Positions 10,801 to 49,320 of a DNA stretch of 64,000 bases are shown piece by piece. The notes under the pieces are model-generated. The model was not told the origin of the DNA, ran no database searches, and saw only the letters and a list, made by a program, of their open reading frames with translations. A program made the position numbers and the translations under genes. The DNA comes from Paralichthys olivaceus (Eukaryota; Chordata; Actinopteri; Pleuronectiformes; Paralichthyidae), in NCBI RefSeq assembly GCF_024713975.1, contig NC_091099.1:14427501-14491500 (forward strand), read 5' to 3'. The first letter of the stretch is position 1. Every line of letters begins with the position of its first letter.

Positions 10801-13800
10801 CACTGAGGCCTCTTGACTATCCTGCTCCCCAAAAGTTCATATGCTTCCAATCATGTGACGCCTTGTTTGTCTTATCTGGAATCACAGTAGATGCTTCTCT
10901 GCTTCTCTCTAACAGTATTTTACAGGCCTGGAGTGTGGACACAAGTTCTGCATGCAGTGCTGGGGAGATTACCTGACCACCAAAATCATAGAAGAAGGAA
11001 TGGGACAGGTACCCACTAAGATTTACTGAGATGTCTTCAGTCATCTAAGGAAAAGCTGTCTTACTAATGATTTGCCTCCTTTGTTTTCTTCTTAGACCAT
11101 TTCTTGTCCCGCTCATAGTTGTGACATTTTGGTTGATGACAACACAGTCATGTGAGTATCTGTTTGTGCTTGAATTTGTTACTATGTCTTTTACGATTTT
11201 GGTCAGCAATAATCAGCACAGGAACATTAATACGATTGTCCTTTAATCAGACATGCTGTCTTTACGTTTTTGTTATTTCAACAGGAATATAAACTGTAAA
11301 TTGGATTAATTTTAACCTGACATTTCTCTGTCTTTGATCAGGCCACTACTTAACTGCTTCACAAAACTTATGTTCAGTCTGTAGCACACAGAAACGTACC
11401 TCCATATTAGAAGCATGGACACTAATCTCATGTATCAGCTTTTAAGCTGACAGTAATAGTCTTAACCTACATTCTGATCTCACTAGCTAGCAAGAGTCCT
11501 AAAAGTGTTTTCACTCATCAGTTAAAGATGCAATATGCACCGACACACATGTTCCCCATGTCAACATTTAATGTCATGAAGTGCATGTTGTGCCAAAATG
11601 AGTCGCCTCCATCCAATCTCTTGGTTTTGTAATAATATGAAATGTGTTGTTGGAACAATGTTAACTTAAGGAAAGGTGAAGTTGTGTGACTCTTTTTTTA
11701 TTATTGCATTGCTGTTAAGAAGGTGCAGTGCGCATAAAATGGAGGATGTTTTGTTTTATCAATTATTCATTTTCTGTAATGAAGACTAATTGTAAATTAT
11801 TTGACTTTTCTTATAGGCGCCTCATAACAGATTCAAAAGTGAAGTTGAAGTACCAGCATTTAATTACAAATAGTTTTGTAGAGGTAAGCTTTGATTTCTT
11901 TTTCCTACTCGAAATGGATATGAAAACATACTCTTTTTTATTAGTTTGAGTCATCAGGTGATCTGTATACACAACTTGTAAAGCATCCATGAAACAGACC
12001 TTATATTCTATCTCTCATTACTTCTTTCAAGTGCAATCGACTGTTAAAGTGGTGCCCTGCGCCAGACTGCCATCACGTTGTCAAAGTCCAGTACCCAGAT
12101 GCCAAACCAGTGAGGTGCAAGTGTGGTCGTCAGTTCTGGTATGAGAGCTTGTTTTTAAAAAATGTTTTATTAGACTATTATGAATTGACAGTAACAGTAC
12201 TTGACTGTCGACTATGTCCATTTAACAGTTATTATTAAAGATGATTTGATTTTGACTTGTTTTTCTGATCTCTTGTTGCAGTTTCAACTGTGGAGAGAAT
12301 TGGCACGATCCTGTTAAGTGTAAGGTAAGTCGACAGAGATCTTATCACCTTTTTATTATCAAAAATATTAAACTTTATCTCTTCATCTTTAATAAAATCT
12401 ACATTGTGTTAACATGATTATTTCCTCTTTTCATTTCAATTATTTTGTAGTGGCTGAGAAAATGGATTAAGAAATGTGATGATGACAGTGAAACGTCAAA
12501 CTGGATTGCAGCAAATACTAAGGTATGGAATCAACAAGGTCTGTTAGGTTCCCTCAAGTACTGGTTCATGATTGTAGAGAATCATTACAATGGAATTTGA
12601 TTATTTTCAATGTGGCAATACTGAAATATGCAAGTGTTTTTAAGCTTTTAAATCATATTTTAAATCGTGTTTTAAATAATTACAGTCAAATGACTTATTT
12701 GATTGAATAATGTTCCCAGTTCCAAGCTAGCAGGCCTTCATTAATGTTTTGGACAAAACGTCAGACTGAAAAATAAACATCTACTGTCTTTTAAGTACTT
12801 TCTTTACTATTTCTCCTAAATTCCTCTTTGCCTTTAATTGTATGTTTTATTTGTCCTGTTTTTTATGAAAAACAATAAAATCGCCATCTCGTGCAGAGAT
12901 TTACAAAAATAATAAATCCCCTCTCCTGACAGGAGTGTCCAAAATGCCATGTGACCATTGAGAAAGATGGTGGCTGCAATCATATGGTTTGTCGGAACCA
13001 GAACTGCAAAGCTGAGTTCTGCTGGGTGTGCCTTGGTCCATGGGAACCCCACGGCTCAGCCTGGTAAGAACTGACTGCTTAGAGAGTTAATGAGTAAATG
13101 ACTCTTTCCATGTCGTATTATACCATAACTTCACAGGTATAAATGCAGATGGTCATGCCATTTTATATCTTAATACATAATACATAAATGTAAACCATGG
13201 ATATGGTATTAATTTATCTTCTCCATCACAATTTGCTTTTAGCTTAATCAGCACACTGTGGTTGTGTAAAACATGCCAGGAGACTGCAGGCCTATTAAAG
13301 TATTGAAGGAAATATGGTCTGGCTGGACTTAAATGAATAGTCAGCCGTTTGGCCATCAGCCAGTGTTTATGGAAAGCTCTGAACAGTAGCAATGTGTTAT
13401 CCTGGAAAACATTTTTAATGGTCCTAATGTTTCAGGTACAACTGCAATCGCTACAATGAAGATGATGCCAAGGCAGCCAGAGATGCCCAAGAGGTAATAA
13501 ATGATCCTGATTTAAAAAAAATTAGAATACTGTTGTTGATGTATATTTGCTACATAATCACTAAATATCTGTGCAGCATTCAGACTTCCATTTATAGATA
13601 CATATGCAGCAGCACCCAGTATTGTTTCCATCCTTCTGCACTGGCTAACACGTGTATATTCATACAAGAAGTTGAGAAAAAATTATACAATTTGATAAAT
13701 TCCAAAACAATTCTAGAGCCAGCAACAAGAAATTCCAATGAGTTATGTCAGAATTTAATCTGTTCAAACTCATCAGTTCCTCTTGTACAAAACATTAATA

Positions 13801-16223
13801 CAGTGAATGCTGCTGTGTTGGCCTGAAAAGACATTGATCAGCCACAACATTAAAACCACCTGACTGCACACAGTCTCTGAAGGTGTATTAAAGTATCAGA
13901 TTCGAATATCGTGAATTTGGAGACATATCCAATATCCAAGCCAACCACTCCTGAATAGTGGCAGTGGAGGTTATCCTTGTTTAAGATGGATGTCCTTGCC
14001 ATGTAGGGGTTTACTTAGTCTGAAACATTGTCATGGTGGAATATATACGTGTCAGGGTAACATCCACATGAATGCCAGTACCCAAGGTTTCTCAGGAGAA
14101 CATTGCTCAGAGCATCACACCGTCTTTTTGTTTTTTCCCACGGGGCATCCTGTTGCAATCTCTTCCTCAGGTAAATGATGCACCCTGACGTTCCACATGA
14201 TGTAAAAGAAAATATGACTCATCAGACCAGGCCACTGTCCTCCATTGCTCAATGGTCCAGCTGTGAGCGCAATGTGCCCATTGTGCATGGGTACACAGTG
14301 AGCTGTGATGCTCTGTGTGTTCTGACAGCTTTCTATCATAACCAGCATTTCTGATACAGTAGCTTTTTCATGAGATTTGACCACACAGGCCAGTCTTCCT
14401 TCCCCATGCACTGTGCCATGGGTTCCCATCACCCTGTCACCAATTCAGCAGTTGTCCTTTCTTGGTATTCACTTTTTAGAGGTAGTGACTGCTGCGTTCT
14501 AGAAACATCACTCTACACCTGCCAGTTTGGAGATGCTCTAACTCTCATCTCGCGATCACAGTTTGGCCCTTGTCAAAGTTGTTCAGATCCATACTCTGGC
14601 CCATGTTAGTGCTTCCAACACACTAACCCTAATAAATTACTATTTACTTGCTGCCTAATATATCCCACCCTTTGAGAGGTGCTACTTTCATGAGAAAATC
14701 AATGTTGGTCACTTAACACTTCAGTGCTTTGTGTGTTATGGCTGAAAGCATAAATGTCTGTTACATCTTCAACAAATATGGTTAATTGTCCCACACTGAT
14801 AAATGATGCATTGCCTGAAATGTTTGCATTATAAATTCTAGATGTTTAATTATACATTGCTGGTTGTCCGGTACCCATGAGCTATAGTGGAGTAAAAGTT
14901 TAATTGAGTTAAATCTGGTTCCATACTGTGTGTGTGTGCAGCGCTCCAGGGCAGCCTTGCAGAGGTACCTATTCTACTGCAACCGCTACATGAACCACAT
15001 GCAGAGCCTGCGCTTTGAGCACAAGCTCTATGCTCAGGTCAAGCAGAAGATGGAGGAGATGCAGCAGCACAACATGTCCTGGATTGAGGTGCAGTTTCTG
15101 AAGAAGGCTGTGGATGTGCTGTGCCAGTGCCGCTCCACACTCATGTTCACTTACGTCTTTGCCTTCTACCTCAAGAAGAACAACCAGTCCATTATTTTTG
15201 AGGTATGTATATAAGAGACATTATTGCCTCAAATGTCTTAAATTCACAGAACAGTTTGTGCTGTTTATCCATTATAATATAATCTGAACTAATCGCTGTT
15301 TTCACACCAAAGAATCAGACTAAAACGTAACATGAAAGCAGTGACAAACCCATGTACTGGAATAGGCTAGAGAAAGCATACAACCTTTGATGATGTAACC
15401 AGTGACATCATCAACACTTGCCAAGTTTAAAGTTGATCGGCTCAGTGGTTGTCATGAAAACTGTTATCTATGAGCTGTGCTTCAGTCTTGCTTCAGTGCT
15501 TCAGTCTTTCAACTCGGATTACATTATTTAATATTCATAACAATTGTAAAACCACATTTCATTACTCAAAATGTCAAAATATCATCCTACATATTATAAG
15601 ATTACAATGCCAACATTACCTTTCTTCTTGTCTTATTCACATACGCTCTTGACGCGTTTGATCCAATCCCAACACTTCTCTGTACAGTCATATTTTTTTT
15701 TGGGAGACAGATTATACCAGGATGTTCTGGTCACATTTCCATTCATGGTTCTGCTCTGGCAGCAGATCTACTCTACTGACCAACACAGTCAGCTGGTTGT
15801 TGGGAGGGGCAAATGTGAAGAAATGGGCTCACAGTTCCTGTAGTCTGAGTTGGGCCTTATGCAGGACATCATGGATTACTGACATTTCTGTAGTCTGTGT
15901 TGGGACATAAAATATTTTTTGTCACCTTTTTTTTTTTTAAAAGAACAACCAGGCAGACCTGGAAAATGCCACTGAGGTGCTGTCTGGCTACCTAGAGCGG
16001 GACATATCCCAGGATTCCTTGCAGGATATCAAGCAGAAAGTACAAGATAAGTACAGGTCAGTGAAGGAGGAATGGTAATCCCTGTCTTCCACTGTTTGTG
16101 CATTCTTGGACTAAAATGAATGTCTCTTGTGTCTGTAGATACTGTGAGAGCAGGCGAAGAGTGCTGCTACAGCACGTGCATGAAGGCTATGAGAAGGACC
16201 TGTGGGAGTACATTGAGGATTGA
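4863..16223 (+). CDS. arih1: E3 ubiquitin-protein ligase ARIH1 (ariadne-1, RBR ligase)
   Basis: Complete gene of 14 coding exons, 529 aa: 4863-5150, 8732-8799, 8896-9043, 10916-11008, 11096-11151, 11817-11883, 12032-12138, 12282-12324, 12451-12522, 12933-13063, 13436-13493, 14942-15202, 15944-16056, 16139-16223. All junctions are GT-AG and keep frame. Order: acidic N-terminus starting [13 protein letters not shown]-like region ([20 protein letters not shown] onward); RING1 beginning CQICYLN; IBR ([17 protein letters not shown]-type ligands); RING2 with catalytic Cys329 in GGCNHM; C-terminal Ariadne domain ending EYIED-like (WEYIED). The family forms a thioester on the RING2 cysteine and works with neddylated cullin-RING ligases, using UBE2L3. 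The acidic/glycine N-terminus is about 28 residues shorter than human (557 aa). The ATG at 4863 gives the conserved N-terminus; an upstream in-frame TTG is not needed. Confidence 0.97.
5151..8731. other. arih1 intron 1, no embedded gene seen
   Basis: A 3.6-kb first intron, AT-rich, with no convincing exon on either strand. It holds an AC/TA-rich minisatellite at 7798-7862. A short palindrome-rich patch of 'gctagc/ttagctag' words lies near 5480-5510. Confidence 0.6.
7798..7862. repeat. Short tandem repeat, CACTACGTATACATACATATATA-type
   Basis: About two and a half copies of a unit of roughly 23 bp containing 'cactacgtatacatac'. Confidence 0.7.
9044..10915. other. arih1 intron 3, nothing recognised
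   Basis: 1.9 kb of AT-rich intronic sequence between the exon that opens RING1 and the exon that completes it. No exon, RNA gene or transposon end is recognisable. Confidence 0.5.
13835..14745 (-). mobile_element. Degenerate Tc1/mariner-type DNA transposon in arih1 intron 11
   Basis: The left end begins 'tgatcagccacaacattaaaaccacc'-like sequence and the right end mirrors it ('..tttgtgtgttatggctga'), the terminal inverted repeats of a common teleost Tc1-like family. Between them, transposase-derived sequence reads on the minus strand (for example around 14115-14432 and the 'tgctgcctaatatatccc' stretch near 14645). At about 0.9 kb it is shorter than full-length relatives and carries several frame disruptions and internal loss, so it is a dead copy. 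It lies antisense to arih1. Confidence 0.8.
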
Positions 16224-19200: not shown

Positions 19201-19867
19201 AAACACTGCGACATAAGAGCATCTCAGCAGCCTGCGTGTCAACGAAGACAACTTGAGCAGATCAGTACAGAATATCTGAAAGTCCGTCCAGCCTCAGTAA
19301 CACACAACAAAACAACCACAATCATCAGGGTAAAAAACAGAAGCCCTCTGCTATCACGACATGCTGACACTATTACTGTAAACCCACAAACACAGGGCCC
19401 GCACCGTCTAACAGTTAATTTGCTGGTTTCTTTCCCACTAGCAAATAAAGGGAAACTAAAAGATTAACTTCTCTTTTTTTAAACCAGAAAAGTGGAAAAT
19501 GATTTAAAAGTCAAATGCAAAACTTCACATATGCTTAATTTTTTTTTCTTTTTTTAAAGAGTTGTATATTTATTTTTTTCATTATGGCTGCTGACCTTTC
19601 TGTGACAAAAACGAATTAGTTAATAAACCAGAAACGCCACATGAGTCAATGATAAGAGTAACAAAATGCTACATATGGTCCGTCTTTAAAGAAGAATGTG
19701 CCCTGTGGCTCTAAAGTGACAAAGCTGACCTACAAAAACAAAAATTCTGTCCGACTTCTTTATTCAAGAAGTCAAACAGATAATTTAAGGCCTATCAGCA
19801 AACAAACCATTTCCAAACTGCACAATTACCAAAACAAAACTGGCTGAGTGACATTTGTATGACGGAA
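16224..19867. other. arih1 3' UTR and convergent intergenic region
   Basis: Downstream of the arih1 stop, AATAAA-type signals occur near 16391, 17949 and 18407; ARIH1 3' UTRs are long in other vertebrates, so a far site is plausible. On the opposite strand, TTTATT words near 19083 and 19567 could serve as polyadenylation signals for the minus-strand gene ending at 19868. No additional gene is seen. Confidence 0.5.
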
Positions 19868-22800
19868 CTAATCATCAATTTTCAACCAGCCCTTTTTATA
19901 GTCTATCAGCAGCTCTAAGTAGTACTTCCACTCTGGCTCGCTGTCATACCTGACCTCAAATATAGTCTTTAGAGGGTTGGTGTGGGCCTCATGGACACGC
20001 AGCACCTCTCCTCTATACCACACTTCTGATTTGTCGTCTTCTTCATACAGGTGGCATATCCTCTTTCCCACTAGGTCAGGGTAGTAGATCCTCAGGGCCC
20101 TCTGAGCCCTCTGGACGGCCGAACGAAGCACCCATCGCCTCCTGTGCTCAGCGCTGTGGCAGGCAGACAAGTAGGGACAGTATTTGATCTTCAAGAGGGA
20201 TCTGCGTTTTCTTTTGGAAGAGCTGCTGAGGGGTCTCAATGTGTGAGAGAAGCTACCAGTTCTCTGCGACTTGTGGGTCGCTTGGGGCATCCTCTTGTCT
20301 CCCTCCAATCCCTCGGTTTTTGAGAAGGAGGGATCATCTAATGTCCCAGAGTCTGACACCGTTTGGTAGTGGGCCTTTTTTCTGTTGAGGCCTTCGCTAA
20401 ACATCCTTCTCAGTTTGAGAATCACGCCTGAGCAAGTCTTAGATCTAACCTGAGTCTTAGCTGATCCTACAGACTGATGAGCAGGCTGCAGAAGGGAGTA
20501 TTCCTCCGTTTCTGTGTCAGTGGGAGACATAGAAAGCTCGTCCAAGGTTAAAGGACACATCCATGAATTCTCAGATGATAGGCTCAGTGGATTGAGTGAG
20601 GAATCCGGCTCTGCAACTGCACCGTCACTTCCTTTGTCCTTACTCACTTCAGACTGACTGGCTCTCAAGTTTCTCTTGCACAATTCTTTCAGCATTCCTT
20701 CATTTACAGAGTCGCCTGCTTCTTCCTTATCTGACAAACTGTTGTCCAGAAACCTGCGCCTCGAGCTGCTCTTTACCCTGCTTTTTGTTGTGTTAGTGTT
20801 CAATTGTGGTTTCATTTCCACGTCCTTTGCGTGTCCCTGTGGACGTAACTCTGGGGGGGAGACTGGTGAGGCGCTGATGTCTGAAAACACTGGGGCCTCC
20901 TCACTACCGTCGTCTTTCTCCCCATAAGCAGGATCGTCCATATCTAATCCTGCAACACAGGGAATAAGAAGAAGTCAAAACAAATACACAAATACGTCAC
21001 ATGTATAGGAAATAATTAATTTGCTGAAAAAACAGGAAGAGTTAAAGCGTTTATAGAATTTGGTCAGAGAGGGATGTTCACATGTTTTAAGTCCTAAAAA
21101 GCCAAGCTACCAACTACATAGTCCAACACCTCAGCACAGGTTGACAAATCGAGCTTATTCTGCACACGAGAACAAGGAGAAACCTGTTTTATTAATATCA
21201 GTAGATACGGTAACTGAGAGCAGAATCCCACACCATGAATCACCCTTTCTGCAGTGAGAGAGAGAGAATAGAAGTCTGTGGGAGGAAATGTGTAGGCTGT
21301 GGGGGGGGGGTCAGCTTCTACAACGGATGCCATCAGTCGAGGATAAAACAGCATCGAGTCGAGGGAAATGTTCAGATACCACGGTCAAGAGCTCCCAAGT
21401 CCCAACTGCTAATAAAGTCAGCACTGAATAGAAACCTGATTAAACCCAATGCAGTTAGTTGCAGTTAGCCTGTGCCAAATAAAATGAAAGCTGACAAAAG
21501 ACATGAAGTAAAAAGGCTAAAAGATAATGGACAAGTCTGGTGATGCTCTACATTTCTCCCTGGTGACAAGGAAAGCACAAAAACATTGAATTGATCCTTC
21601 TCAGCATGGAGCGTTACTGACCCTGTAGTGTGAGGGGTTTCAAATCTTAATGTCAGCGACTGAATCAGAGTCCGTCTGTTTTAAAAAAGTACATTTTTGA
21701 TATTTGCAATTCAATTATTATTGGCTATCAGGACATGAAAAGGACCTCAACAAATCATAATCATTGAGATTTGAAAATTGGTTAGTGTGCAGCAGGCATT
21801 ATTTAACTGAGGATACTATACTGAGTTGATCAGCATGGACAGTTTATTTTTTTACTCTCCTTCAAAGTCTCCTGCAACTTCAAATGCTATCTAACAACTA
21901 ACTAAACAAATATTCAGCTGAAAATAGTCAAAACTAACTGAAGAAAAAAAAACACATTACTGGTTCGGCTCGTTTCATTTGATTTGACTATAACGAAACA
22001 GATCATCATCGGTCTTGTCTTTTAAACTCACGATGATGTTCACAATCTTCAACACAAAGGGCTCAGAAACATGCCAATGCTCAGTCTGATCCTCAGTGTG
22101 CTGCAGAATGTCCCTTCCTTCCTCCTGTGCTATGACCCAACAGCTGGACCTACACTCTGCACCCCTTCCCTCCACCCATCTATAACAATGTAGTCGTGTG
22201 ATTGGTCAGTGGCTGTGGGCACAAACTGTTGGTGTTATATAAAACAGGGAAAAAAAAAAAGCAAAGAACAGGAGATCGAGGGACAACATAAAAAAATTAA
22301 TATACCTGGACTCTCTTTTGGACGTCAGGTGAAGTTGATTCTGTAAAAAATAAATGGATTTTATATTGAATATGTATGTATTGAATGAATATGTTGCTCT
22401 GTTCTTTACAAGAAAGGGCCAGTAATGCAGAACATATGACTAAAAGGCAGCTTGAAGGAAAACTAGATACAGTTAGCTGTCAAAATGTTTTATTCTAAAA
22501 TCCACACAAATCTCTAAATCACACCCAAAGGGGATTTCCAAATATCTGCAAGGGAAGGCAGGAAGCGCTGTAACTTTGGCCATCATGTTGCACACACAGT
22601 GCAACAAATGATCACAGTAAAGAAGCACGTGTCAGGAAACAAGGATTTGTACGTGGAACAGCATCATATGAATGGTTTCAATGTGTCTTGTGATCCATTA
22701 TAAGCAACATTAAGAACAACAGACGTAATTTTTCCCTCATGACTTACATTTGTATGACTGCCAGACAAATAAGCTGTGCTTAACTGAATAAATAAGTTGC

Positions 22801-25800
22801 ACTCTCAAAACTGAAAAGCAGAAGTAGTCAAATTTTATTTTAAAAGTTATTTGTGTCAGCAACGTATGTGTCTATTCTCTTTTCATTTCGTGTCTCCTTC
22901 ACCAACATGTTTGCTTCAGTGTTCGTCATTGGTGGTTGGTGTCCAGGATACCCCAGGAGGGGTAATTAACACAACTGTTGCTCATTGTGACATGTCTCAT
23001 TTGTGTGCCTTGATACTACCAAGAGACTAAATGCCATGTTTACATCCCAGGGTGTCATTAATATGGAAAATGGTCATTTTTCTTTTTCAAAAAGACTAAA
23101 ACTTCCATTCCTACCTTTCTTTCTTTACTTTGAAGAAATTCAATGTACTGTAACTCTGACATGCACTTACCCAGGTGTTTGCAGACACAAGAGTAATACA
23201 AGATGTTGACCACGTCTGCGTAGATGTCAGGCAAGTGTTTGAGGGACATCAGCCTCCTGAGGCGGGAGGAGCAGGCCCGTTTGTGAAGCTGGATGAGGAT
23301 CTTCTCTTCGGACAGCGTCGTAGGCCGAAGCGCCACTTTGTGCTCGTGCAGGACCTGGTCGATGAAGCTGACCTGGACCATCGGGAACAGCAGCTCCTTC
23401 ATCACCAGCATGGGCAGGAACACCGCCCCCGTCCGCATGACGTGCGGAAAAGGACACAGCTCCTGGGCGGTGTACTCTTTCAGCCTCTCCAGGACCTTGT
23501 GGAGAGCAGACTTCATCTCCTCGTTGAGCCACACCTCTCGGGCTCTCGCACCCAACAGACACGACACTTTCTGGACTTTGGTTGAAGCGGATGCAGGCTC
23601 TGTAAGTGGCAACTCGGACAACCAGGTTCTGAGCTCCTGTTCTGAAGAAGCTGACACAGATTTTGATATCAGCTTGCAGAGGGAATGGTGTAACTCAAAG
23701 AAATGCTTGCGGACTGGCGTTTCAGGCTCTTGTTTTGGAATCATCTCAATTACTGGCTGTGCAGGTGGTTTCTCAGGTGGTGGTGGAGCAGGATTGGAAT
23801 GTTTCATATCAGGGAGAATGATTCTGTAGCTGGAAAGTTTTAAACACTGGGGAGGAATGTTTTTGAAATTTATTTTGCTCTCAGGTGGCTGAGGTGGAAT
23901 AGTGGGTTTGGATTGAAGGGTTGACACCCGCTCCTTCAGTGTGCTTGCATCACCCTCAGAATACAAACTCTTCTTTCCAGTCAACTCAACGGTTTTTGAC
24001 TCATCTGAAGTCTCGCTTTCATCTGCAACTGAGGCTTCGATTTCAGGTTCATCAGGTTCACATTTCTTTATCACCAACATGGGCACACAGTCAGAAGAAT
24101 CAGCCTCTTCAGGCTCTTGTTTGATTGTAACTTTGATGCAGTGCTTCTGACTAACAGGAAACTCTTCTGTGTCCGATGGATCGGCTTGTTCCACTTTAAT
24201 AACTTTCTGTTCAAAGGTTTCAACAACAGCCTTCTCTGTTGGAGTATCTGGACAGATTTTTTTGGGAACGGGACAGACAACAGGCCGCTGTTCGTCTCCA
24301 TCTGACTTTTTTGCTTTGAAGTCTGGCTTGGGCTCAGAGGACTGGATGCTTCTTACAGGCGCTCTGCCCGGAAATAGCACTCCAGAGACCTGCAGGTACG
24401 CTTGGTACGGTGCCAGGCTGAAGACGCTGTCAATGACAGGCAAAGGAGGAGAGACAGTTTTATTTCCTGCTTGTACATTCTCCATTTCCACCTTTTGTCG
24501 TTTCTTCATGAGTCCCACTTCACATAAATCCCTACCCTCTTCTTTTATTTTGACTGGTGGCGATGGATAAGAAATGCTTCTCTTCAGGCAACCTTTAAGA
24601 ACCGAGCTGCCTGAAGTAGACGTGGGGGCATTGTCATTATTTCCTGTTGCATTAACAGGGGAATAAATAATTTTTCTGACATTGGCACTATTGGCTACAG
24701 CTGCGTGGATGCGATCAGCACTGTGACTGGGAGACTGTGGAAGCCATGCCGCCATGGAAACAGGATGCTGTGTGGCCTGGGCTTCACAGGAGGAATAGTC
24801 TGTGAGTCTTTTCAAGCCACCAGGTGAAAGGATGTGTGGGTCCATGTGCCAGTTGGAGAACGAGGGGAAAGGTCTGTTTACTTTTATCATGGGAAGTGAG
24901 AGGCCAAGTTGGCTGCCACATCTGGTGGGACTGGTTAGAGCCATGCCACGGAACGGTGAGTGAAGTTGTGACTGGGCGACGTGCAGGCTGCTGTTGGCTT
25001 TGTCCTTATGTGGGTTGGTTGCAGAGGTTAAGGGGTGATCCATACGTTGTCTGGTTGGGGACAGATTTATGCCATTACTGTGAAAACTAGGCGATGCATG
25101 TGGCCTTTTTTGGGGTGCTCTGATATGGCTTGGGATTACATTAAATCTAGGTACTGCATAACATGGATAGTCAAAGCCCTGTATAAAGGAATGGTTTGGT
25201 AATGTTTCAGTGCTAGGCAAAGGAATTTCACCACGAAATGACTGGGGCACGATGTAATGGTCCCTGGGGTTCGAACTTGTGTGTTTAAGAATAACAGGGA
25301 CATCTCTCTGCTTACTGCCCATGTTTTTACACCGTGTGCTGTTTTGTACCTCCTCATTTGCGTGGGTGTAGTAAAACACTGGGTGCTGTGTTAGCTGACC
25401 ATATTTGGACATGGGAGAGCGTTCCTGATAAACCTCTGAGGTCATATGCTCGTATGGAGGATGGGAGGGGTATTGGCTGGGGTAGCCTCTAGGGGAAGAC
25501 TGTAACCGTTGGCTCTGCTCGCTTAAAGAACCAAACAGAGTGCGAGTCGGGGTGCAGGGGTAACTGCTGTAGTTGGGGTCAATCACTGTAGGCAACGTCC
25601 TCCCTGCACTTGGGCTGTACGTCTCCACGCTGATCCTCTCCAGTGGTTCAGCACTGGGATCAAACTGTAAACCTCTCTGCTGCAGCAGCACCTCTTGTGT
25701 CTTTGTCTGGATAGCTGGTCTTTCAGCGTAGTGGGCATCACTTTGCATCCAGTCGTGCTTGTATAAAGGGTTTGGTATCCTCGGGGAGCCATGCTCCACA

Positions 25801-26342
25801 CTGTATCGGTGCCCTATAACGCAGCCCAGCTCGTTACAGCAGGGGTTATGTCTGTAAACTGGCTTTGGAATTGCAAGGTAAACAGAGTTTTCGGATGGAG
25901 GAGATGAATTCTCACCTCTGCTTGTATGTTTCCTCACAGCAGCTGTGGGGCTGCCCAGCCCTGGACTTTTAGTGTATAAGGTAAAGCCCTGTTTAACTGG
26001 GCTGTGACACCGGGAGGAAGACTGAGAATGATGGTCCTCTGGAGAATTGCTGTCTTGCCTGTAAAATATGTGGTTTTGCCCCTCCATGCCAGAGAGGTGA
26101 CTCATAGGACTTCGGCCATCCTGCAGCGAGGTCTTTGAGCTGCTCCACGGTGGAGTGAATCCTGCGCCGTCCTTTCCTCTGGGGTCATATGTTAAGTAGG
26201 CCCCGCTGTACTGCTTATCCAGGTAGCCAGACATATTTTGCGGCTTTGGTAGAACTGTGGCTGCTGTAGTCCCGTCGAATAAAGGCATCTTGCTTTGAAA
26301 CGCTGGGCCAACAAGGGTATGTATGGCCTGGCTGTTCATCAT
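19868..26342 (-). CDS. C15orf39-family protein with C-terminal Spin/Ssty (Tudor-like) domain
   Basis: Two coding exons, 26342-23171 and 20949-19868, join in frame (phase 1: CTG G|GA TTA GAT ATG) to give 1417 aa. Start ATG at 26342; the exon opens at an acceptor at 26384. The first 1057 residues match human C15orf39: PVIDSVFSLAPY near the middle, proline-rich linkers, and a conserved block with CPFPHVMRTGAVFLP and ALRPTTLSEEK near residues 970-1030. The last exon encodes a disordered basic Ser-rich stretch, then residues about 1350-1417 (LVGKRICHLY .. EVWYRGEVL .. FEVRYDSEP .. YYLELLIDYKKGWLKI), which resembles one Spindlin Spin/Ssty repeat (compare Spin1 IGKAVEHMF .. DEWRGMVL .. YQLLDDYKEGDLRI). 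Human C15orf39 as I recall it lacks this. The function is unknown; the domain suggests a nuclear chromatin-linked role. Alternatively 19868-20941 (357 aa from its own ATG) could be a separate gene. The C15orf39 match is firm; the joined structure is my inference. Confidence 0.8.
22306..22340 (-). other. Candidate alternative 35-nt exon in the C15orf39-like gene
   Basis: On the minus strand a good acceptor (TTTTTTACAG) precedes 35 nt followed by a donor (CAG|GTATATT). Spliced after 23171 it continues the first ORF by 12 codons, then meets GAT TAG in the last exon, ending the protein. The ATG of the 357-residue downstream ORF follows that stop by two bases. It may be a real alternative exon, a poison exon or a chance splice-site pair; there is no transcript evidence. 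Confidence 0.3.
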
Positions 26343-26606
26343 GTTGTAACTTTGTTGTGATGGTGCACGGATGTGGCTGCAGATCTAAAAACACAAAAAT
26401 AAAACAAGAATGACACACTGGCATTATTTTTTAACAATGTTTTGCTAGATTAGTTCAAGAGATTAGTCTCTTTCATTAGCTGGGATACACCCAAGTCATT
26501 AGACATGAGGGCAGAATACATAACAGAAAAATACACTTCACACATTTAAAGGAATTATTGTTATTTAACTTCTTACTTGAGGCATTTTCTAAACATTGAA
26601 AGATCT

Positions 26607-28352: not shown

Positions 28353-28867
28353 TTATATTAATCCATGCTTATCTCCCAATTTTGGCTTTTCCCACGGGCA
28401 CTTGAAGGCAGCGCATGTTATCTGACAGTGTGTCAGCTTGTAGGAGGAGAAAGAAAGATGACCTCATCACGTGATGAACTCATAACGCTGCCACACAAGA
28501 ATCTGCAAGAACCGGCCAGGCAACCAAACTACATCCTCAATTATTTATTGTTAATTTCTGGCTCCTCTCCACTGAAACTCAAATTATGGCCTCTGAGTGG
28601 CACAGGCAAAGGTTGGCATGGGCCAATTTTAAATTCAGATCTCAGGAACCTATGAGCAAAATGTGTCTAAACTGAAATAGTGATGACATATGTAACACCT
28701 CTGGATTTTGCGAACACAGCAGTCCTGCCAGATGTTATCAGCGCATCCTGTTGACACCTTTCAGACAAAAGACATTAAAAAAAGAGGTTTATTTGCGCAC
28801 AGCGAAGAGTTCTGTGGGTTGTACGTGCGTGGAGGAAACTGCGCGCGGAGGTGTTTGCAGCAACAGA

Positions 28868-28937
28868 CTGTGTCTGTGTGTGTGTCTGTGTGTGTGTCTG
28901 TGTGTGTGTCTGTGTGTGTGTGCGTCTGTGTGTGCAT
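28868..28937. repeat. TG-rich minisatellite
   Basis: Tandem 'tctgtgtgtgtg' units. The open frames that cross it on both strands are products of the repeat. Confidence 0.9.
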
Positions 28938-29578
28938 TTCCAGATCTGTGGGGGCATGCGGGGCTGTTGGAGACTTCCGAGAGCAAACCGTCCAAACGCA
29001 CAAACCACGTGGAGGGAAAAGAGCGTGGGAAAAAAAATCCCACGGCTTATGTTTTAAAAACGTTAAAATCATTTATCTGATTATAAATTAAGTGTGTCAG
29101 GTCCAGGGTGGCTGAAGGATTTCAACACGTTCGCATAAAAGATGGTGTCAAGGTTGACTCAAAATAAAAAACGGAACTTCAAAAAGTTTCTTGTCAGCTT
29201 GTTTTGACAGACAGGTTCTAGATAACTATGGAGCGAGTGTACGTGCTGACCAGGAGCAAAAACACATGCCATGTACCTTCGTTAATAGTGTCAAAATAAA
29301 GAAAGGACGCAAATATTATTCAAAATGATAATTAGCAGACGTCAGTCCCATACAAGCTGTGGAAGTGACATTTCAACACGAATCAAACTGAAACCAATCC
29401 GTGCGTAAAAACGCAACGCGAATACAAATGTTTGCCACGGACGCGCTGACTTGTATATAAAATAGTTCCACATGCTTTCCTGTTTGTTGCACCTTCTGCT
29501 CTTCCCCTCTTTCGCAATCTGCGGCACAGTATCTGCCTCGCATGAGTGGGTCTGAGCGGTAAATCAAACTTTCCTTAC

Positions 29579-29905
29579 CTCGCTGCTGTGATGCCAAAAG
29601 GTGCCTTCCACAAAGACTCCATGAACCACGGCTGCTCAGAAGAAGAAGTGAAGGAAACAGTCTGTCCTACAGTCTATGGTCCTCTGTCTGTCTCTGCTCG
29701 TCACACAGTGGACTTGTGTCAGGCCCGGGTGCGCCAGAAGAAGGGGACAAAAAGGAAAAGTCCCTGAATGAAGTGAGAGGGAGGCCTGGCACAGGGTGTG
29801 AGGCTGGAGCGGCGCGTCCTGCGTCCACGCTGTTGCAGGAGAAGTTAACAAACCGAGGAGAAGACAAAAGGGAGGAGGAGGAGGAGGAGGATGGTCCTTG
29901 ATCAA
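29579..29905 (-). promoter_or_regulatory. Probable noncoding first exon and promoter of the C15orf39-like gene
   Basis: A strong donor on the minus strand (CAGCGAG|GTAAGG, exon end at 29579) lies in a locally GC-richer stretch upstream of the coding exon whose acceptor is at 26384. This fits a 5' untranslated exon. The transcription start is not visible; the upstream limit is arbitrary. A GA-rich purine tract lies at 29865-29895. Confidence 0.4.
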
Positions 29906-35474: not shown

Positions 35475-38400
35475 TCATTTTAATGGGTCTTTGTTGGCTT
35501 CTGACTGCAACATGACGTGGCATTCAAGAATTTTCTGAGATGACTCATCTAGTCTCTGAAGATACTGCTTGACAACGCTGACGATAGTTGTCACCTCTGC
35601 CATGCCGCCTTTTCCTGAAACAAAATGAAGAATTACTGGTTCCACAAACAGCTTCTGCAGGGAGGGGACAAATGATTCAAAAGTACAGAGCGTACATTTC
35701 TCACAAACACACTTTAATGAATACAGGTATATAATTCTGTACTCCCACAGGGTTTGCATATCTCCAGGTGTGTGAGGTAGGTTTTGTTTAGAAATTACCA
35801 GTGAATCAATGAGACAAAGAACTATGAGAAAACGTGCCTGTGCAGAGACTTACACTGTTGCACTGTTGATGCAAACTTTACACTTGAATTTGAATATTTT
35901 TTGTTGATATATCATTCTTTAATTCTTTTTTAAATCTTCATATGCCTGCTTTACATTTGAATTTCTTCAGAAGAACAGTGTTTTTCATTACTGTGGTTTG
36001 TGCAAGCATTACAAACGATGATCATACATATGCTGGAGGCATTTTTTGGTTGCATTTCATGGATGGATTGACGTTTTTTCAACTGTCAATTGCCATTTAA
36101 GCTTTTTTTTTGTGTGGAAAATTCCTTCATCTCCGTACTTGAAGCGATCTGGAAAGTGAGAACGTGGGAGTATGTTGTATATCTAGTGATAAACACACCT
36201 GTAGGAGGCACACCTTACAGGAGACTAAAAAAGTTCCCATATAAGTTGGTCAAGCACACCAAACCTTTCTTGAAGCAATTCTCGGGGGAGCAACATATGT
36301 GTCGTCTATATTGCATGTTTGCTGACACCCACAGAGGTGTTATACAGTACAATAACACTAACGATCACACTGAGTGCATCACTGCAGCAAAGTGTGAAGT
36401 TCAAACACTGTGGAGGAAATATAAGTGGCTTATTTACAGCAACAGTGAAAATTATACATTTTGAAACCTGTTTTTACACAACAAAATAACCACTTGCACA
36501 ATTTGTTTTAATCTGCGGTGTGCAGTGTGTCTTGTTATGCAACTTTCATCTATGCTGTTCTGTCTGTTTCAATTTACTCACCATTGAACAATGGATGTCG
36601 TGCTTTACCCTGTGCTTCTACTTATACTCTGTTTGTACATGATTTGCATATAACAAACTGTTAAAGCAACAATAAAACCTCATATTAAAAGACATTAATG
36701 CAGTTCATCAGCAAGGAGATGATGTTTTCATCAGCATTTGTTTGTTAGCAGTGAATATTGATGGATCTTGATGAAAATTCAGGCATTATAAGGGGAACCA
36801 GCTCTATTAGGAGACTGTTGGGCCTTGGCCTTGGTACGGAGTGCAATTCGAATTCAAACTGTTGCAATTTAACTATATTGTTAGCATTTTATTATCTTTT
36901 TTCCTTATTCTTTTTGAAACTCACCTTCATCTCCACAGGCTAACTTTTTAAATATGCAGGGGATTTCCACATATCCAAACTCTTTCAGCCTGGTTACCTG
37001 CTGGGCTGTAATGGGATGCTGCCACATAGCTGTATTCATCGCAGTGCAGAAGAGCAGAGGTCGAGTGGTATCCCAGGCTCTCACCACACACGTCTGCCAA
37101 TAACAAATACCAATCAGAAATCATATAATAAACACAGAATTGTTTGACATTATAATTTGTAGGTAAGCAGATGAAAGTTCTCACCAGCAGATTGTCACAA
37201 ATGCCATTAGCAATCTTTCCAAGAGTGTTGGCATCCAGGGGAGCAATGACAAGAAGGTCTGCCCAGCGCCTGAGCTCAATGTGGAGCACAGGGTCGGATC
37301 TCTGTGTCCACAGCTAAAACAGAAAAAAGCGATTACCAAACTGACCAGAAACTGACTGACACTTCTTTCACTGAGTGTATGAGCCTTTAGAGTTTCTCAA
37401 TGCTTCCTGTCCTTTGTGCATGTTTCACAATTCTCCTGTGGCTCAGCATCTGGAAAGCCGTAAAGTCACTACACTGATCCCACACTTTAATTCACTCAAT
37501 GTGGTTTTGAGTGTGAGATTAGATTGTATTTTAATTCCACGGGCCTGACGGGAGCTTCAAATAATATGAAAATGATAGATGTAAATAGAGCACATTCATT
37601 CATTTTTATATTTAATCAAAAATACAAATGATAAAAATATCAACAATCATGTCAGAGGACTAATGGATAATGGATTACTAGAACAATGAAGACATTTTTA
37701 CCTCCCACTCATCCTTGTCGCTGTAGGTTTTTACAGAAATCTCTGCAGGATTGAAGAAGTGCTTGGCATGCTCCGTAGTGACGACTCTTACTTCCACCTA
37801 AACCATAAAACAAGACATTCACAGGGATGTTTAAAAAAAAAACGTTTTTACAGCATTAAGGATTTGCAATTTAACATACCATATAGCAATTCTCACAGAA
37901 TTGTGGGGTTGGATGTGTGTAAAAAGGCACCAAGAGAATCCTTTCCTGTGATATCTCAAGTCTGCCTTTAGGGAATATCTTCAAATTGTGACCAGTTATC
38001 CCATGGACACATGAACCATAATAACAAGACCGCATTGCTGTAGTGTTGCGGCTGTGGCTGTATTACTGGCTAACAGATGCAACACCTCCATCTCGTGGTT
38101 CAGATGCGCCAATGTACTGGACAGGTTGAGAAGCTTAGCAGCAATAACTTCAGACATCCAACTTGAACATCCTACAGTGCATCAGTGAGCTGACGACATT
38201 CGTCTTTCTTGTTGTGTTCTGTGTGTGCATAATCAATCCACTTTTTTTTAATGTGTAAGAGAATCTGCTTATCTTTTAAAGATTTGTAAAAGAGTAAGCT
38301 GCAGATGTGTTTTCAGAGTCTGTGCTATCAGATTTTTAAACGTGTGGAAATGTGCCATGAAATTAAAAGGTGCATTAAAATTGGCAATAAACATGCTTGG

Positions 38401-43124: not shown

Positions 43125-46100
43125 TTAGCTGGAGAAGTCTGTGTGCATGGGGGCAATATTTTGATCAAAAGCAGCATACTGGGAATCCCCAGTGCTCGCA
43201 AGTTTGAGCTGCTGTGCGGCGTGGGAGAGCTGGAACGCAGCGTCGGGATGGGCCGAGTCGGGCAACATAGTGCACTCTCTCTCCAGCAGATCAGCCACTC
43301 CCTTCAGGAGCTCCCAGAAACCGAAAGCCAAGGCAGCCTTCCGCAGACGGTTGAGCTCCTGACAAGTTAAAAATAAAGAACAGTTATTTAAATTGTGAAG
43401 CAAAGATCTTAAGTTTAGCTGTGTTTTCAAGCCTGAGCAGTTTTTAGTCGAACCTACCTTATAGAAAGTTTGAGTTTTATCTGGTAATTTTCTTGCATTC
43501 CTCAGAATCTTCTGCACATCAGTCTGTAAAATGAAGAATAATAATTAAGACTCATTACTATATCACATCATATGGGATTTATAGCAGAGATAAGAAATTC
43601 TAATGTCAACAACTTGCGAGTGGTCATGAACGGTTGTTCAGTAACAGTTAACGGTGAGGGTGAAAATACTGTGAAAGGACAAACTAGCACCATATTTATT
43701 TGTTTTGGGAGTCATTACATTTTACCAGCGACTTTCCTGATGTGAAGTGTCCGTATTTGTTTCAACAGTATTTACAAGTCAAAAAACTACGAGAACATGA
43801 CTCATGAGTGAGCATTACCCAAGATCCACTGCAGAGAGGTGGGGGGGGGGCAGGTTGTGTTATCAAATGGAGATATCACAGACTTGGGCCATAAAACTGC
43901 ATTCCATTCTGAGCTGAAATTCAAATCACTTTAAAGGAGGTCTGAAGCAAAGTGACAATGATGTTTAAACTTTCTATAATATTTTTTATATTGTTTTCAG
44001 GTAATTTGATAGAATTCCTACACAAACGTTAGTGTTATATCCATATGTTGGTAGTTTAACATGTCTGGGCTCAATCTGTGAATATATTAGTGGCAATGCA
44101 TTATGGGAGCTCTTAATAATGGCCTCTGCGACACTAATCCTGGATATTATATTTGCACTACCATGTTATGAAAAGGTATTTTGTCCAATTCTTACAGAAG
44201 AATCAAAAGCCACTATTTTGGTCACTTCACCAAAGATAATAGTGCTGTGACACATTGGTGATTTAAGTATACCTGTAGTCCACTGGCCTTTATCCACACA
44301 GTAACGTTCTGGGCGTAGCTTCTTTTGGCCGACGGCTGCACAGGAAAGGGACTTTTATCATCCTCTCCATAGGGATTTTCAGCAGCCTCTGAAATACCAG
44401 AGAGGTTAGGAAACGTCAAATCTACGGTATCGCAATCAAAGCAGCTCAACTTTGTTTAACAACTGTGTAAATCATTAACAGCTTGATTGTGAACACAAAG
44501 AGTCCTTCAGGAATAGGCAGTCATTTACCTATGCACAGGGTAATGTGTCCTAAGTTACATGAAAATACAGTTTCACAATATCCAAAAATGTCATAAGCAC
44601 TTAAAATGATGCCTTCAGGAATTAGGATGTTTATGAGCAGTGTGCTAATGAGACAAAAGTTTCCTGTGAATCGGATCATTCTGTTTGTTTGTCTGCGACA
44701 GTTTACCTGAGATTGGTCCCAAATATGAGATCTTGCCGAGCCAAGGCAGGGGCTCTGGACCAGGCTCAAACAGAGACATCATCAGATTTGATTTCTTCTT
44801 GCTGTCTGCTTGAGAATATAGCATACCAAACCACTCTGGCCTTGGGAGAAAAAAAATAGATTTAGGCTATTTATTCATGGAAATGTGTCATCTCATGTAT
44901 TTTTATTTTATTTCAAATATGTTAAATATAATCAGCTTTGTTGATTCTCACCCCAGCTGGACCAGAGCCACCATGCCCTCAACTTTCAAACTGCCGTGTA
45001 AAAGGACACAAAAATTTGGACTCTTTCCTGCCATCTGACTGGCAGAGGGTTCCTCCTCAGGCTCATCTGTGGCTCCTGTGCCGACTTCATCCACTTCTGA
45101 ATTTAAGCAGAAATAATACATGTTGCTAATAAGATCTGAAGTGTAGTATACCGAGCCCATTTCAGTCTTTGAATTAAAAATGATGTGCACATTTTAAATA
45201 TGATCAAAGGGGCATCATTTCCAGCAGTTTAATATATAAATATTAAAAGAGAAATAAAAATGTTCAGCACTAACCTTTGTTTACAGCAAAAGGCAGAACC
45301 AAGTGTCTGGATATAACAGGAGGACTGGAAATATCGGCAATTTCGATGAAGCCCACAATTTCCAAATCTGAAACATGCATAACAGAATGAAAATTGTTCT
45401 GAAGAATGATAGTTTATATCAAACTCTAAACGAATAAATGTGAAGCTGGCTGGGTACCTGTATTGACTGTTCGTGGCATGGGCTCCACCTCTTCATCCAC
45501 CACAATAGGCTCAGGTCGAGGGAACACCTGAACATCCGACGACAGGTTCCCACAGTGCAGGACCGCATGGAAAGGAGAGTATGCGTAATCAATCAGCCTC
45601 CTGGAGATAAACACAGATGTAAAATGATATAAAAGATGCTTTAGTAAAGAATAAAATAAGAAAAAGTACTGTTCATTTCGTCAGTAATAGTCATACCCAA
45701 ACATGGCCTGTACACTCTTCATGCAAAGTGGTCCCTCCATAGTGAAGATCTGTCCATCCCCTCCACTGAGGTGAAGTAGTTCCTCCAGGTTGTCCATGGC
45801 ATCAGTCATCTGTAACTGCAGGTGCACAAGACAGGAAGTTGCATTTGAAACAGCAAACAAATGTATCGCAAAATGCCAAAATTATACAGGGATGCACATT
45901 TGAAAAACTGATATGCACTGGACACAAATGTGAGACACATAACACTCAAGACATTTTAATAAACATTATGTGTCAGTACATTAGTACTAAATAAATAATA
46001 ATAAATAAAGACTCAGTATAGGCCATCACTTTAGATCACGTTTATAACAGCTGCTTCAGGTTGTATGGTTTCTGATCAAAATTCCTCCTTGGTAGTGCAT

Positions 46101-47569
46101 TTGGATAAAGATGCAAGTAAAGAGAAAATAAGTGTTGAGCAGGCAGCCAAAACAATGTTATCAGTACCTCCTCTGCATTAGCGACACACATGATGAACAG
46201 TTTGGTGGGGAAAGGGAAAGGAAGTGGGAACTTCTTATCATCCCCACGGTGCTTCAGTGTTTGGAGGGAGTGCCGTAGGGAACCCTTTCCAATGCCAAGA
46301 GATCCATCAGTAATCAGCATCAACTAGAGGTCATCAGAGAGAGGAATACAAACTGAGATCAATATTCGTAGGGTTTCTGCAAATAACAACTTAAAGATTC
46401 AGTGTTCAGAATGTAGTGACATCTAGTGGGGGAAAATGCATGTTGCAGTTGAATACCCTCACCTCACCCTCCCCTTTCACACATGAAAGACAACCTGTGG
46501 TAGCCTTCAGTTGTCATGAAACCTCAAAAGATGTTTACTTTGTCTAGTTTGGGCTACTTTAAAAAACATGGTGGCCTCTGCAGAGAGGATCCGCTCCCAC
46601 TGTAAATATAAAGTATTTAAATATGGGGCCAATTCTAGGGTAAAGACAACAACTATTGCTACATCCAATTACTTGCACATCCTCATTATTGAAGAAAATG
46701 AAAGTGTTGTAGAGAATAACCCTTGAAACAGCAAGTCATCTCTTAAACTAGATTAAGAGACAATACCTATAGTCCTTCCCACAATCTGAGTGTATTGAGA
46801 TATATTCTGACCAGGGTGTTTGTAAACTAAGTTATCATTTTAATGTTGATCTTGTTTGAGGTTTTATTAGTCTGTATTATTGAAAATGAACACATGAAGA
46901 CACTGAACAATGTGCATGCCACTGACACATTTCTCTAAAAATAAAATGCATTAATGACAGTTAACATAATTGAGACCTACAAAAATGTATTTAAGATCTA
47001 CTATGAAATATTTTACATATTTAAGACTTTTTAAGGCTTAACATTTAGTTAATACTTTTAAGACTTTTTAAGATTAGTCGGTACATCAGCTTTATCTGAT
47101 CAACAAACTCAGAGGTGTGATGAAATTGTACAGAGAGCTTTCCAAAGTACCTGACAGGGACAGGCACTGCCCCACTCTTGTTGGACAACATTACTAACGC
47201 CTTGAAGGGCTGATTCAATGCAGGTCTTGTCATAGTCTTCCAAGCTGCTCAGAGCCTCCTGCACAGGAAAAGATGTGTAAATTAAATATTCCCTCACAGC
47301 TCAGGAGAGGAAAACATGCTCCTTCTGACTCATGAGGCACACTTCACCTGTAGTGCATTGTAATCCCTGGTGAATGGCACCAGCAACTCCCAGAGGGAAG
47401 AGAAGGCCATGAGAGCCGTAAACTCCAGGCGGTAGTTGGAGGCCATGTGTTCAAACAACATGTTGAGCCCGTGCACAGCCAGGTTCTTCCTCTGAAACTC
47501 CTCGCTGCCATCCAGTGACACCGGCCGTGTCATGGACAGAGACACGTCCATCAAGACCACGGTAGGCAT
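43125..47569 (-). CDS. ints14: Integrator complex subunit 14 (VWA9)
   Basis: Eleven coding exons, 511 aa (human 518): 47569-47348, 47258-47151, 46323-46168, 45815-45697, 45600-45458, 45367-45275, 45096-44952, 44840-44707, 44388-44273, 43523-43458, 43358-43125. INTS14 forms a module with INTS10 and INTS13 of the nuclear Integrator complex, which cleaves snRNA precursors and nascent transcripts. The N-terminal von Willebrand A domain has a MIDAS-type DVSLS at residues 8-12 (VVLMDVSLSMTRP). The beta-barrel region contains FPRPEPIVVDEE and NFCVLLHGSLKVEGMV. The C-terminal helical part has DVQKILRNARKLPDKTQTFYK and ends MHTDFSS; the short extra human tail is absent. An acceptor at 47637 shows at least one upstream noncoding exon. 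Intact. Confidence 0.96.
46391..46700 (-). mobile_element. Second copy of the TTAA-flanked MITE, in ints14 intron 2
   Basis: Starts TTAA-AGATTCAGTGTTCAGAATGTAGTGACATCTAG and aligns in reverse to the element at 32802-33171 through shared blocks ('ctgtggtagcctt', 'gtaaatataaagtatttaaat', 'ctagggtaaaga'). More diverged; the far end is unclear. Confidence 0.65.
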
Positions 47570-49320
47570 GGCTCGCTGCTTATACAGACTCACAACAATG
47601 CAGTGGACTTAAAGTGGCCTCCAGTGTGTTCCCACTGAAGGAAAAGACAAGAAGATGACAAAGTTGATAACATCAAAAACACAATACATGTTTATGAGCT
47701 TCTCATCATGTATTAGGATGGCAGATGGAAGCTGATCATGGATAGTGGTGGAGGATCATGATCGTGGTGGAGGATGATGATCATGGTGGATCCTTATCGT
47801 GGTCTATGATTACAACAAGACTGCTTGACATAAAATACACCTACTCACATACTCTATCATTACTGACCATAAATCCTCAATTATTTCTATTTAAATTCAT
47901 ACAAACCGTTTCTTCTTATCGATGTTGTAAATACTGTTATTTTGCTGATGTCCTCAGTTACAGTTATCTATTGGACTTCTGTCTGTCCTGGGAGAGGGAC
48001 CCCTCACATGTGGCTCTCTCTGAGGTTTCTACGTTTTTCCCGTTAACAGGGGTTTTTGGGTGTAGTTTTTCCTTACTCTTGTTGAGGGTTAAGGACAGAG
48101 GATGTTAAGCCCTTTGAGACAAATTGTGATTTGTAAATATGGACTATACAAACCGAACTTGATTGATATATGAAATGAGCAGTCGTCAGTTATCTGTCAT
48201 ATGACGCAGCAGTAGCTGCACTAATGTCAGCGACATCACAGAACAAACATTCAATGACGTTAAAAGCTAAAAAGTGAAGGACACATCACAGCAGCAGAGA
48301 GCTGGTGGCTAACAGTTGCTAATTATCGCTAGCACCCTGCAACAAAAAGCCCAAAAGCCCAAAGTAAATAAAGGCCTCGTTTCTATTGAACGAATATAAG
48401 AAAATAAACAGACACACGGTTAAAACTTTGTGTGAACATGAATTAACAGAGAGACATACAAATAAATACATATATTTAGACAGATACATGCCATTCAGTG
48501 TTTCGCTCGCCATACAGTTCTGTTTTGTGCTGGAGTGAGCAGCGCTATTTCCGTCCGGGTGAAACAAGTGTGCTGTATTCCTTTAACACATGGTTCCAAT
48601 GGGAGGTAAAACAAAAACCATGTTTGTGCGCTAAGAGATTTACACAAAAACAAGCCGGGAGTATTATCAGTCATTTCAACAATACTCGTGCTTACTCGTG
48701 CACATTATAAGTTCGAGTTTAGAGTTTGGATGTTAGTTCGTGTTTAAATGTGATGTGCTGGAAAAACAACTGATCGACATTAGAAGAAACAACATTTTTG
48801 TCTTTTCAGTTCAGGAAACATCGGACACGAAGGATTGATCCACCCCATTTCAGCCCTGGATATAAAAAACAAGATTTTGGATTGTTGTGTTTAAAATAAA
48901 AAATAATGGAAGACGTTCGGCCCCATTTCTAAAGGTGAGACAGAGTTCACACTGTTTCTGTGTTTGATGATAAATAAAATAAATAAAGTAAACGTCTGTC
49001 AGGCTGCAGAACCAAAGCTTCAGTCTGCGGAGGAGACTGTCATAATCCTTTTAAGACTCAAGGAGCATTGTATTTGGAGATGTTTGACTAACCTGCATCT
49101 GTGATTAAAAGTGTTTATTTTGCTGGTGCTGCCATGTCTGAAGAGAAGAAAATTGCTCCATGTGCTTTATAAATTTCACTTAATCTCAACTTCACGCTGT
49201 TTTATTTTTCCAGGGATCGAAGGATGTGAAGAGTCACTCGACTAAAGTTTTGGAATCTTTCACTCCATGCCCTGCCTGTGAGGAAGCTGGAGTGGACCTC
49301 ATGTGTGTATATTTGGGAAA
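47570..49320. other. 5' region between ints14 and the first slc24a1 copy
   Basis: Divergent genes face away from this stretch. The ints14 untranslated exons lie here (acceptor at 47637; a GC-richer patch at 48520-48580 with an ETS-like TTTCCG could be its start). For the slc24a1 copy, a noncoding exon ends at donor 48934 (AAAG|GTGAGA) and resumes at 49215 (TTTTTCCAG|GGATCG). A LINE/SINE-like tail lies at 47840-48170. Confidence 0.5.
47840..48170 (+). mobile_element. Teleost retroposon 3' tail
   Basis: Contains the very common teleost string pattern 'cttctgtctgtcctgggagagg', 'ctgaggtttc', 'cgttaacaggggttttt', 'agccctttgagacaaattgtgatttg' and the 'tatacaaaccgaacttgattga' end. This is a non-LTR retroposon 3' tail; the body is missing. 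Confidence 0.65.

Follow-up and report, generated by a model that had tools for sequence, protein, structure and literature searches.

Introduction

According to the available text of one report, human C15orf39 is mainly cytoplasmic and also nuclear, binds PRMT2 and dampens NF-kappaB signalling (PMC11173073). The accessible part of a second report places it among the proteins whose transcription-factor proximity-labelling signal differed between two studies (PMC10933267), a signal which would put C15orf39 near nuclear factors. A third report, in the part available, mentions it as a MAPK1 substrate only (PMC10298883).

The Spindlins are better described. In the accessible portion of a study of Spin1, the H3K4me3 pocket is formed by F141, W151, Y170 and Y177, while D189, D184, Q180 and E142 contact A1 and R2 of histone H3, D189 contacts the H3 N-terminus, and D173 and Y177 serve H3 R8 (PMC7864079). 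Spindlins also bind H4K20me3, through a pocket shared with H3K4me3, as stated in the available part of a further report (PMC5348760). Within the open-licence literature, no report was found that treats C15orf39 and spindlin together, and no mention of DUF5525 was found; a Spin-type domain for C15orf39 is apparently not in print there. The C15orf39 protein encoded by the fish locus described here very probably ends in a single Spindlin-type module, as judged from its sequence.

Results

The C15orf39-like gene and its neighbours

The window, i.e. the whole stretch of DNA that was analysed, comprises 64 kb of contig C7 (14427501-14491500) from a genome of 588 Mb in 25 contigs, whose size, contig number and gene content point to a fish. 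The gene has the following features:

23171..26384, minus strand: exon 2 of the C15orf39-like gene, coding from the ATG at 26342 (1057 whole codons and one further base)
23172..23708, minus strand: end of exon 2, matching the conserved C-terminal part of DUF5525 (E 2.5e-36, profile positions 735-894 of 1017)
28751..29750, no strand: CpG-rich stretch upstream of exon 2, from the CpG observed/expected ratio, possibly the promoter

The exon 2 frame, run on to its stop, matches DUF5525 (PF17663), which we take to be the C15orf39 family, with an E of 8.2e-44 and 150.4 bits, above the curated Pfam cut-off of 26.8, over profile positions 485-903; cut at its donor, exon 2 scores 142.7 bits. Among the window's 4,135 minus-strand AGs, its acceptor at 26384 ranks 68th. 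Exon 2 matches only itself in its own genome (E <= 1), and in the PDB neither exon 2 nor its C-terminal part had a match at E <= 10. An exon with a Flavoprotein domain (36948-37313), presumably PPCDC, adjoins exon 2 on the same strand, and we assume that PPCDC adjoins C15orf39 in human too. Given the DUF5525 match and the PPCDC-like neighbour, we read the gene as a C15orf39 orthologue, an assignment that forms part of an overall explanation held with moderate confidence (see Discussion). No likeness to the end of the family profile was found: the last ~115 of the 1017 profile positions were matched neither in exon 2 nor in exon 3, and exon 3 has no match in the profile, so that the modelled DUF5525 members seem to end differently from this gene.

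With regard to the CpG-rich stretch, windows starting at 28751-29251 have a CpG observed/expected ratio of 0.78-1.07, against a mean of 0.36, with a G+C content of only 0.40-0.47, and the stretch overlaps a TG repeat. It may serve the C15orf39-like gene as its promoter. At 11993-15214, on the strand opposite to exon 2, lie exons with Ariadne and IBR domains, which are presumably ARIH1; the interval between them and exon 3 was surveyed by means of an overview of the list of open reading frames.

A proposed third exon, joined in frame to exon 2

The proposed join and its surroundings comprise the following features:

20950..23170, minus strand: proposed intron, phase 1, GT...AG, 2,221 bp, from splice scores and phase
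19868..20949, minus strand: coding part of the proposed terminal exon 3 (1,082 nt; 359 whole codons after the split codon)
19759..19764, minus strand: AATAAA poly(A) signal, ~100 nt past the exon 3 stop
22525-22545, minus strand: frame-keeping 21-nt piece between the best acceptor in the intron and a weak donor, which would add DIWKSPL

The initial annotation had proposed splicing from 23171 to 20949 in phase 1 to give a protein of 1417 residues, and the frames and signals are as it described. Joining 26342-23171 to 20949-19868 on the minus strand yields 1417 residues with the last codon as the lone stop, and the junction reads G/GA TTA GAT ATG, the slash marking the join. Scored with weight matrices that were not trained on this genome, the donor at 23171 reaches 4.94 (rank 26 of 3,733 GTs on the minus strand of the window, and the best in its own interval) and the acceptor at 20949 reaches 8.39 (rank 9 of 4,135 AGs on that strand, i.e. 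the top 0.22%). The stop-free frame of exon 3, at 359 codons, is longer than the longest found in 1,000 shuffles (203), and its codon usage resembles that of exon 2 in this frame only (+0.23 bits per codon, the two other frames giving -0.15 and -0.13). A search of the genome found no further copy of exon 3.

Exon 3 could instead belong to a separate small gene that encodes 357 residues, begins with MDDPAYGEK and has a spliced 5' leader; C15orf39 would then end within exon 2 or use another short exon as its last. An in-frame ATG does lie 8 nt into exon 3, with a purine at -3 and a G at +4; the exon 2 frame, if continued beyond 23171, is closed by a stop at 23060-23058, with an AATAAA at 22839; and the candidate last exon at 22545 has the top acceptor of the interval. 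Against this, no CpG-rich window lies inside the intron, where the observed/expected ratio is 0.26-0.41 (windows starting at 21001-22501, wholly intronic), while the windows that overlap the flanking exons give 0.60 and 0.59. Translated in its three minus-strand frames with X at stops, the interval 19600-23170 has no DUF5525 match and, for other Pfam families, only two matches far below the cut-off (E 0.15 and 3.3). Moreover, the phase of the acceptor fits exon 2 and the frame is open across the acceptor. We consider a separate gene improbable.

The intron also offers material for further transcript forms. Its acceptors at 22545 and 21248 both outscore the one at 20949; four small in-frame internal exons are possible (acceptor score >= 3, donor score >= 0), and a transcript could also terminate in any of four short alternative last exons that have a poly(A) signal no more than 250 nt away, of which the one at 22545 is the most credible. 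If left unspliced, the 22525-22545 piece would form a last exon of this type, its stop followed 22 nt later by a poly(A) signal. A 35-nt candidate exon at 22340-22306 was discarded as a route to the fusion, since it shifts the frame and leads to an immediate stop in exon 3. Continuing the exon 2 frame past the donor lengthens the DUF5525 match by 8-9 residues, and shuffled tails can do so too. Across the junction, the DUF5525 score is 118.5 bits for the join, 119.8 for the run-on, 119.9 for an alternative donor and 115.7 for the 35-nt microexon, with six shuffled tails at 114.2-123.6, so that the run-on and the shuffled tails do as well as the join; these scores shift with sequence length, and scores from differing lengths were left out of the comparison.

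Two C15orf39 forms might coexist, a short one whose end lies in exon 2 or closely behind it, and a long one that includes the Spin-type domain. Such a pair is suggested by the four possible short last exons and by poly(A) signals at 22839 and 22494, but signals of this type are expected by chance in an intron of 61% A+T (G+C 0.386), and we regard two forms as unlikely. As regards the long form, this reading is compatible with the explanation that we prefer, namely a transcript in which exon 2 is spliced to exon 3.

The in-frame join to the C15orf39 family exon is supported by the sequence, through the donor, the acceptor, the phase and the DUF5525 match (E 8e-44). A transcribed fusion of exon 2 to exon 3 appears very likely, on the basis of a good donor and acceptor, a fitting phase, an intron free of CpG-rich stretches and a poly(A) signal.

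A single Spindlin-type domain at the probable C-terminus

Three features were located at the end of exon 3:

19877..20074, minus strand: Spin/Ssty repeat-2-like domain (66 aligned residues; PDB, genome, HMM and hhalign comparisons)
20144..20182, minus strand: Cys/His cluster YCPYLSACHSAEH (CPYLSACHSAEH) followed by a predicted helix, directly ahead of the Spin-like domain (sequence and low-confidence model)
20201..20215, minus strand: KRKRR, a basic run resembling a nuclear localisation signal (pattern scan), with a putative function only

When the last 72 residues were compared with the PDB (phmmer, E <= 10), the top 17 of 21 matches were Spindlins, with E values from 9.5e-7 to 1.5e-4, the best being repeat 2 of Spindlin-1 (E 9.5e-7); the remaining four were unrelated, at E 0.49 or worse. 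Whole exon 3 gave 17 matches, all of them Spindlins (best E 5.3e-4), and the best 5 of the 17 alignments all fell on repeat 2. In its own genome (E <= 10), the domain matched itself and repeat 2 of the four spindlin loci (C4, C18, C3 and C16), so that all four non-self matches are spindlin repeat 2 (E 0.03 to 0.9). Whole exon 3 matched itself, two spindlins (E 0.7 and 1.1) and a C20 sequence (E 1.2), the latter over exon 3 residues 214-295, mostly ahead of the Spin-like domain.

Profiles were built from the Spin repeats of the four loci. The all-repeat HMM comprises ten repeats (four of repeat 2, four of repeat 3 and two of repeat 1), the first repeats of the C4 and C18 loci having been left out since they are split in two pieces there. 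The domain scored 27.6 bits with the all-repeat HMM and 23.8 with the repeat-2 HMM, and none of 5,000 shuffles reached either score. The repeat-1 HMM gave 10.2 bits, a score matched or exceeded by two of 5,000 shuffles; for the repeat-3 HMM, with 1.3 bits, the number was 490. By hhalign, the probabilities were 94% for all repeats, 93% for repeat 2, 3% for repeat 1 and 0.5% for repeat 3; 300 shuffles reached at most 6%, and accepted Spin repeats compared with each other gave 91%, 37% and 92%. Its similarity to repeat 2 is about that seen among accepted repeats, and repeats 1 and 3 are distant from it.

These results bear out the suggestion that the last ~68 residues form a single Spin/Ssty repeat, which is most like repeat 2 (PDB E 9.5e-7; 0 of 5,000 shuffles). 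The HMM comparison with PF02513 that had been proposed along with it fell short: Pfam Spin-Ssty scored 13.8 bits on a 70-residue piece, below the cut-off of 25, and was not reported for a 117-residue piece or for whole exon 3. Likewise, the window is absent from the 13 matches of the Spin/Ssty family search of the genome (E <= 0.001). Scoring below the Pfam cut-off, the domain is best described as a single and divergent Spin relative, apparently neither a Pfam-grade family member nor a Spindlin. Its homology to a Spindlin repeat is nonetheless close to certain from these comparisons.

Several features are shared with the Spindlins (SPIN1-4 and Ssty; PF02513). The nearest relative found, in the PDB as well as in the own genome, is repeat 2. 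The match spans 66 residues; compared with repeat 2 of the C4 locus, 23 of 63 aligned positions carry the same residue, and the four cage positions are aromatic. In contrast to the three tandem repeats of Spindlins, only one repeat is present here, joined to an unrelated protein; relative to repeat 2, it carries insertions of two, two and one residues, stays under the Pfam cut-off and has a tryptophan at the D189 position. Agenet (PF05641), presumably of the same Royal/Tudor superfamily, matched weakly over the middle of the domain (E 0.03-0.05), but with 14.6-15.2 bits this lies below its cut-off of 27, and no Agenet protein is named among the PDB matches.

The first 240 residues of the exon 3 product (P0002) have no Pfam match at E <= 10, and NCBIfam gave no match. 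A resemblance of the C-terminal segment to the long isoform of LCOR/C10orf12 was considered and abandoned, exon 3 having neither a second genome copy nor an LCOR-type Pfam family. Relatives of P0001 and P0002 were not confirmed in the viral and prokaryote contig collections, which lie outside the vertebrates, and an alignment of the domain confirmed no relative among the viral contigs. The Cys/His cluster and helix at 20144-20182 have no convincing Pfam match and are possibly part of the Spin-like module. SUMO-type motifs are not enriched (four were counted, and 495 of 2,000 shuffles contain at least that number). The 26 S/T-P motifs compare with an average of 22.4 in shuffles, and no enrichment is claimed for them.

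AlphaFold2, run on single sequences, modelled a helix followed by five strands for 117 residues (pLDDT 43) and four strands for 72 residues (pLDDT 55). By eye, the order of the strands in these low-confidence models is compatible with a Tudor-like barrel.

The putative methyl-lysine cage and histone contacts

In alignment A2, the Spin1 cage F141/W151/Y170/Y177 corresponds to Y/Y/Y/Y in the exon 3 domain. The initial annotation had placed aromatic residues at all four positions, with a tryptophan at W151. The aromatic character holds throughout, whereas the tryptophan depends on the register: the hhalign and all-repeat HMM alignments pair it with W151, but in the MAFFT and repeat-2 HMM alignments it lies one residue off and the counterpart is the tyrosine of VWYRG, the position being aromatic in either register. 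With regard to the other contacts, the domain keeps E142 and D184, two of the four repeat-2 residues that contact H3 A1 and R2, while Q180 and D173 are each replaced by glutamate and D189 by tryptophan (alignment A2). The loss of D189 suggests either that the domain, should it read H3, would hold the free N-terminus in another way, or that it would recognise a different mark.

Provided that the homology and the transcribed fusion both hold, methyl-lysine reading is probable. The fusion and the Spin homology could also be real without the domain being a methyl-lysine reader, in which case it might serve protein contact or bind methyl-arginine, nucleic acid or an unmodified partner. Such a role would have a parallel in Spin repeat 3 of the same genome, which is kept as a domain although the first two cage positions are missing in alignment A2; it would also fit the replacement of D189 by tryptophan and a cage made up of tyrosines instead of F/W/Y/Y. 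In addition, the available text of one report has human C15orf39 working with PRMT2, an arginine methyltransferase (PMC11173073). These points have to be set against the four cage positions, all aromatic, and against E142 and D184, which are identical to repeat 2. We consider a non-reader role rather unlikely.

Discussion

The explanation that we somewhat favour overall is that of a C15orf39 orthologue, spliced from 23171 to 20949, in which a nuclear scaffold is combined with a reader in the form of a terminal Spin-type Tudor domain. The transcript would be spliced between these two sites in vivo, so that the DUF5525 part is followed by a linker of ~290 residues and then by a single Spin-type Tudor domain, related to repeat 2, as the C-terminus. 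The protein would probably act as a scaffold in the nucleus, with partners bound by its long N-terminal part and by the conserved C-terminal part of DUF5525, and the KRKRR run may aid nuclear entry. The terminal module would dock the protein on a trimethyl-lysine tail by means of a four-tyrosine cage, H3K4me3 being the first candidate mark. The mainly cytoplasmic location of human C15orf39, as given in the available text of its report, counts against the nuclear scaffold (PMC11173073). The Spindlin-type module itself is a hint of a chromatin role for C15orf39.

It is also conceivable, although we put it forward only tentatively, that ancestral C15orf39 was a chromatin reader with a C-terminal Spin-type Tudor domain and a cage of its own, which was kept in fish and lost in mammals through replacement of the last exon, leaving the scaffold. 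The Spin-type exon may just as well have been gained in fish as lost in mammals, the comparison covering one genome.

Given that C15orf39 has almost no known function, a terminal histone-reader module in one vertebrate lineage would, if true, give it a testable job. It would also mean that a Spin repeat can occur alone in a protein other than the three-repeat Spindlins, and that such copies can escape family models whose cut-offs are strict.

Additional observations in the window

Exons with IntS14_C and VWA_2 domains were observed at 43125-43544 and 47330-47608 on the minus strand. We presume that these, together with the Flavoprotein and Ariadne/IBR exons, match genes on human chromosome 15.

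Two tandem and very similar exchanger-type exons lie on the plus strand, at 49282-50364 and 54067-55284, the second of which matches Na_Ca_ex. They differ at six of 40 residues, including the glutamate of the SAPEL motif, which is replaced by lysine in the first copy. This glutamate is ion-binding, and its replacement suggests that the first copy (49282-50364) may be decaying or altered.
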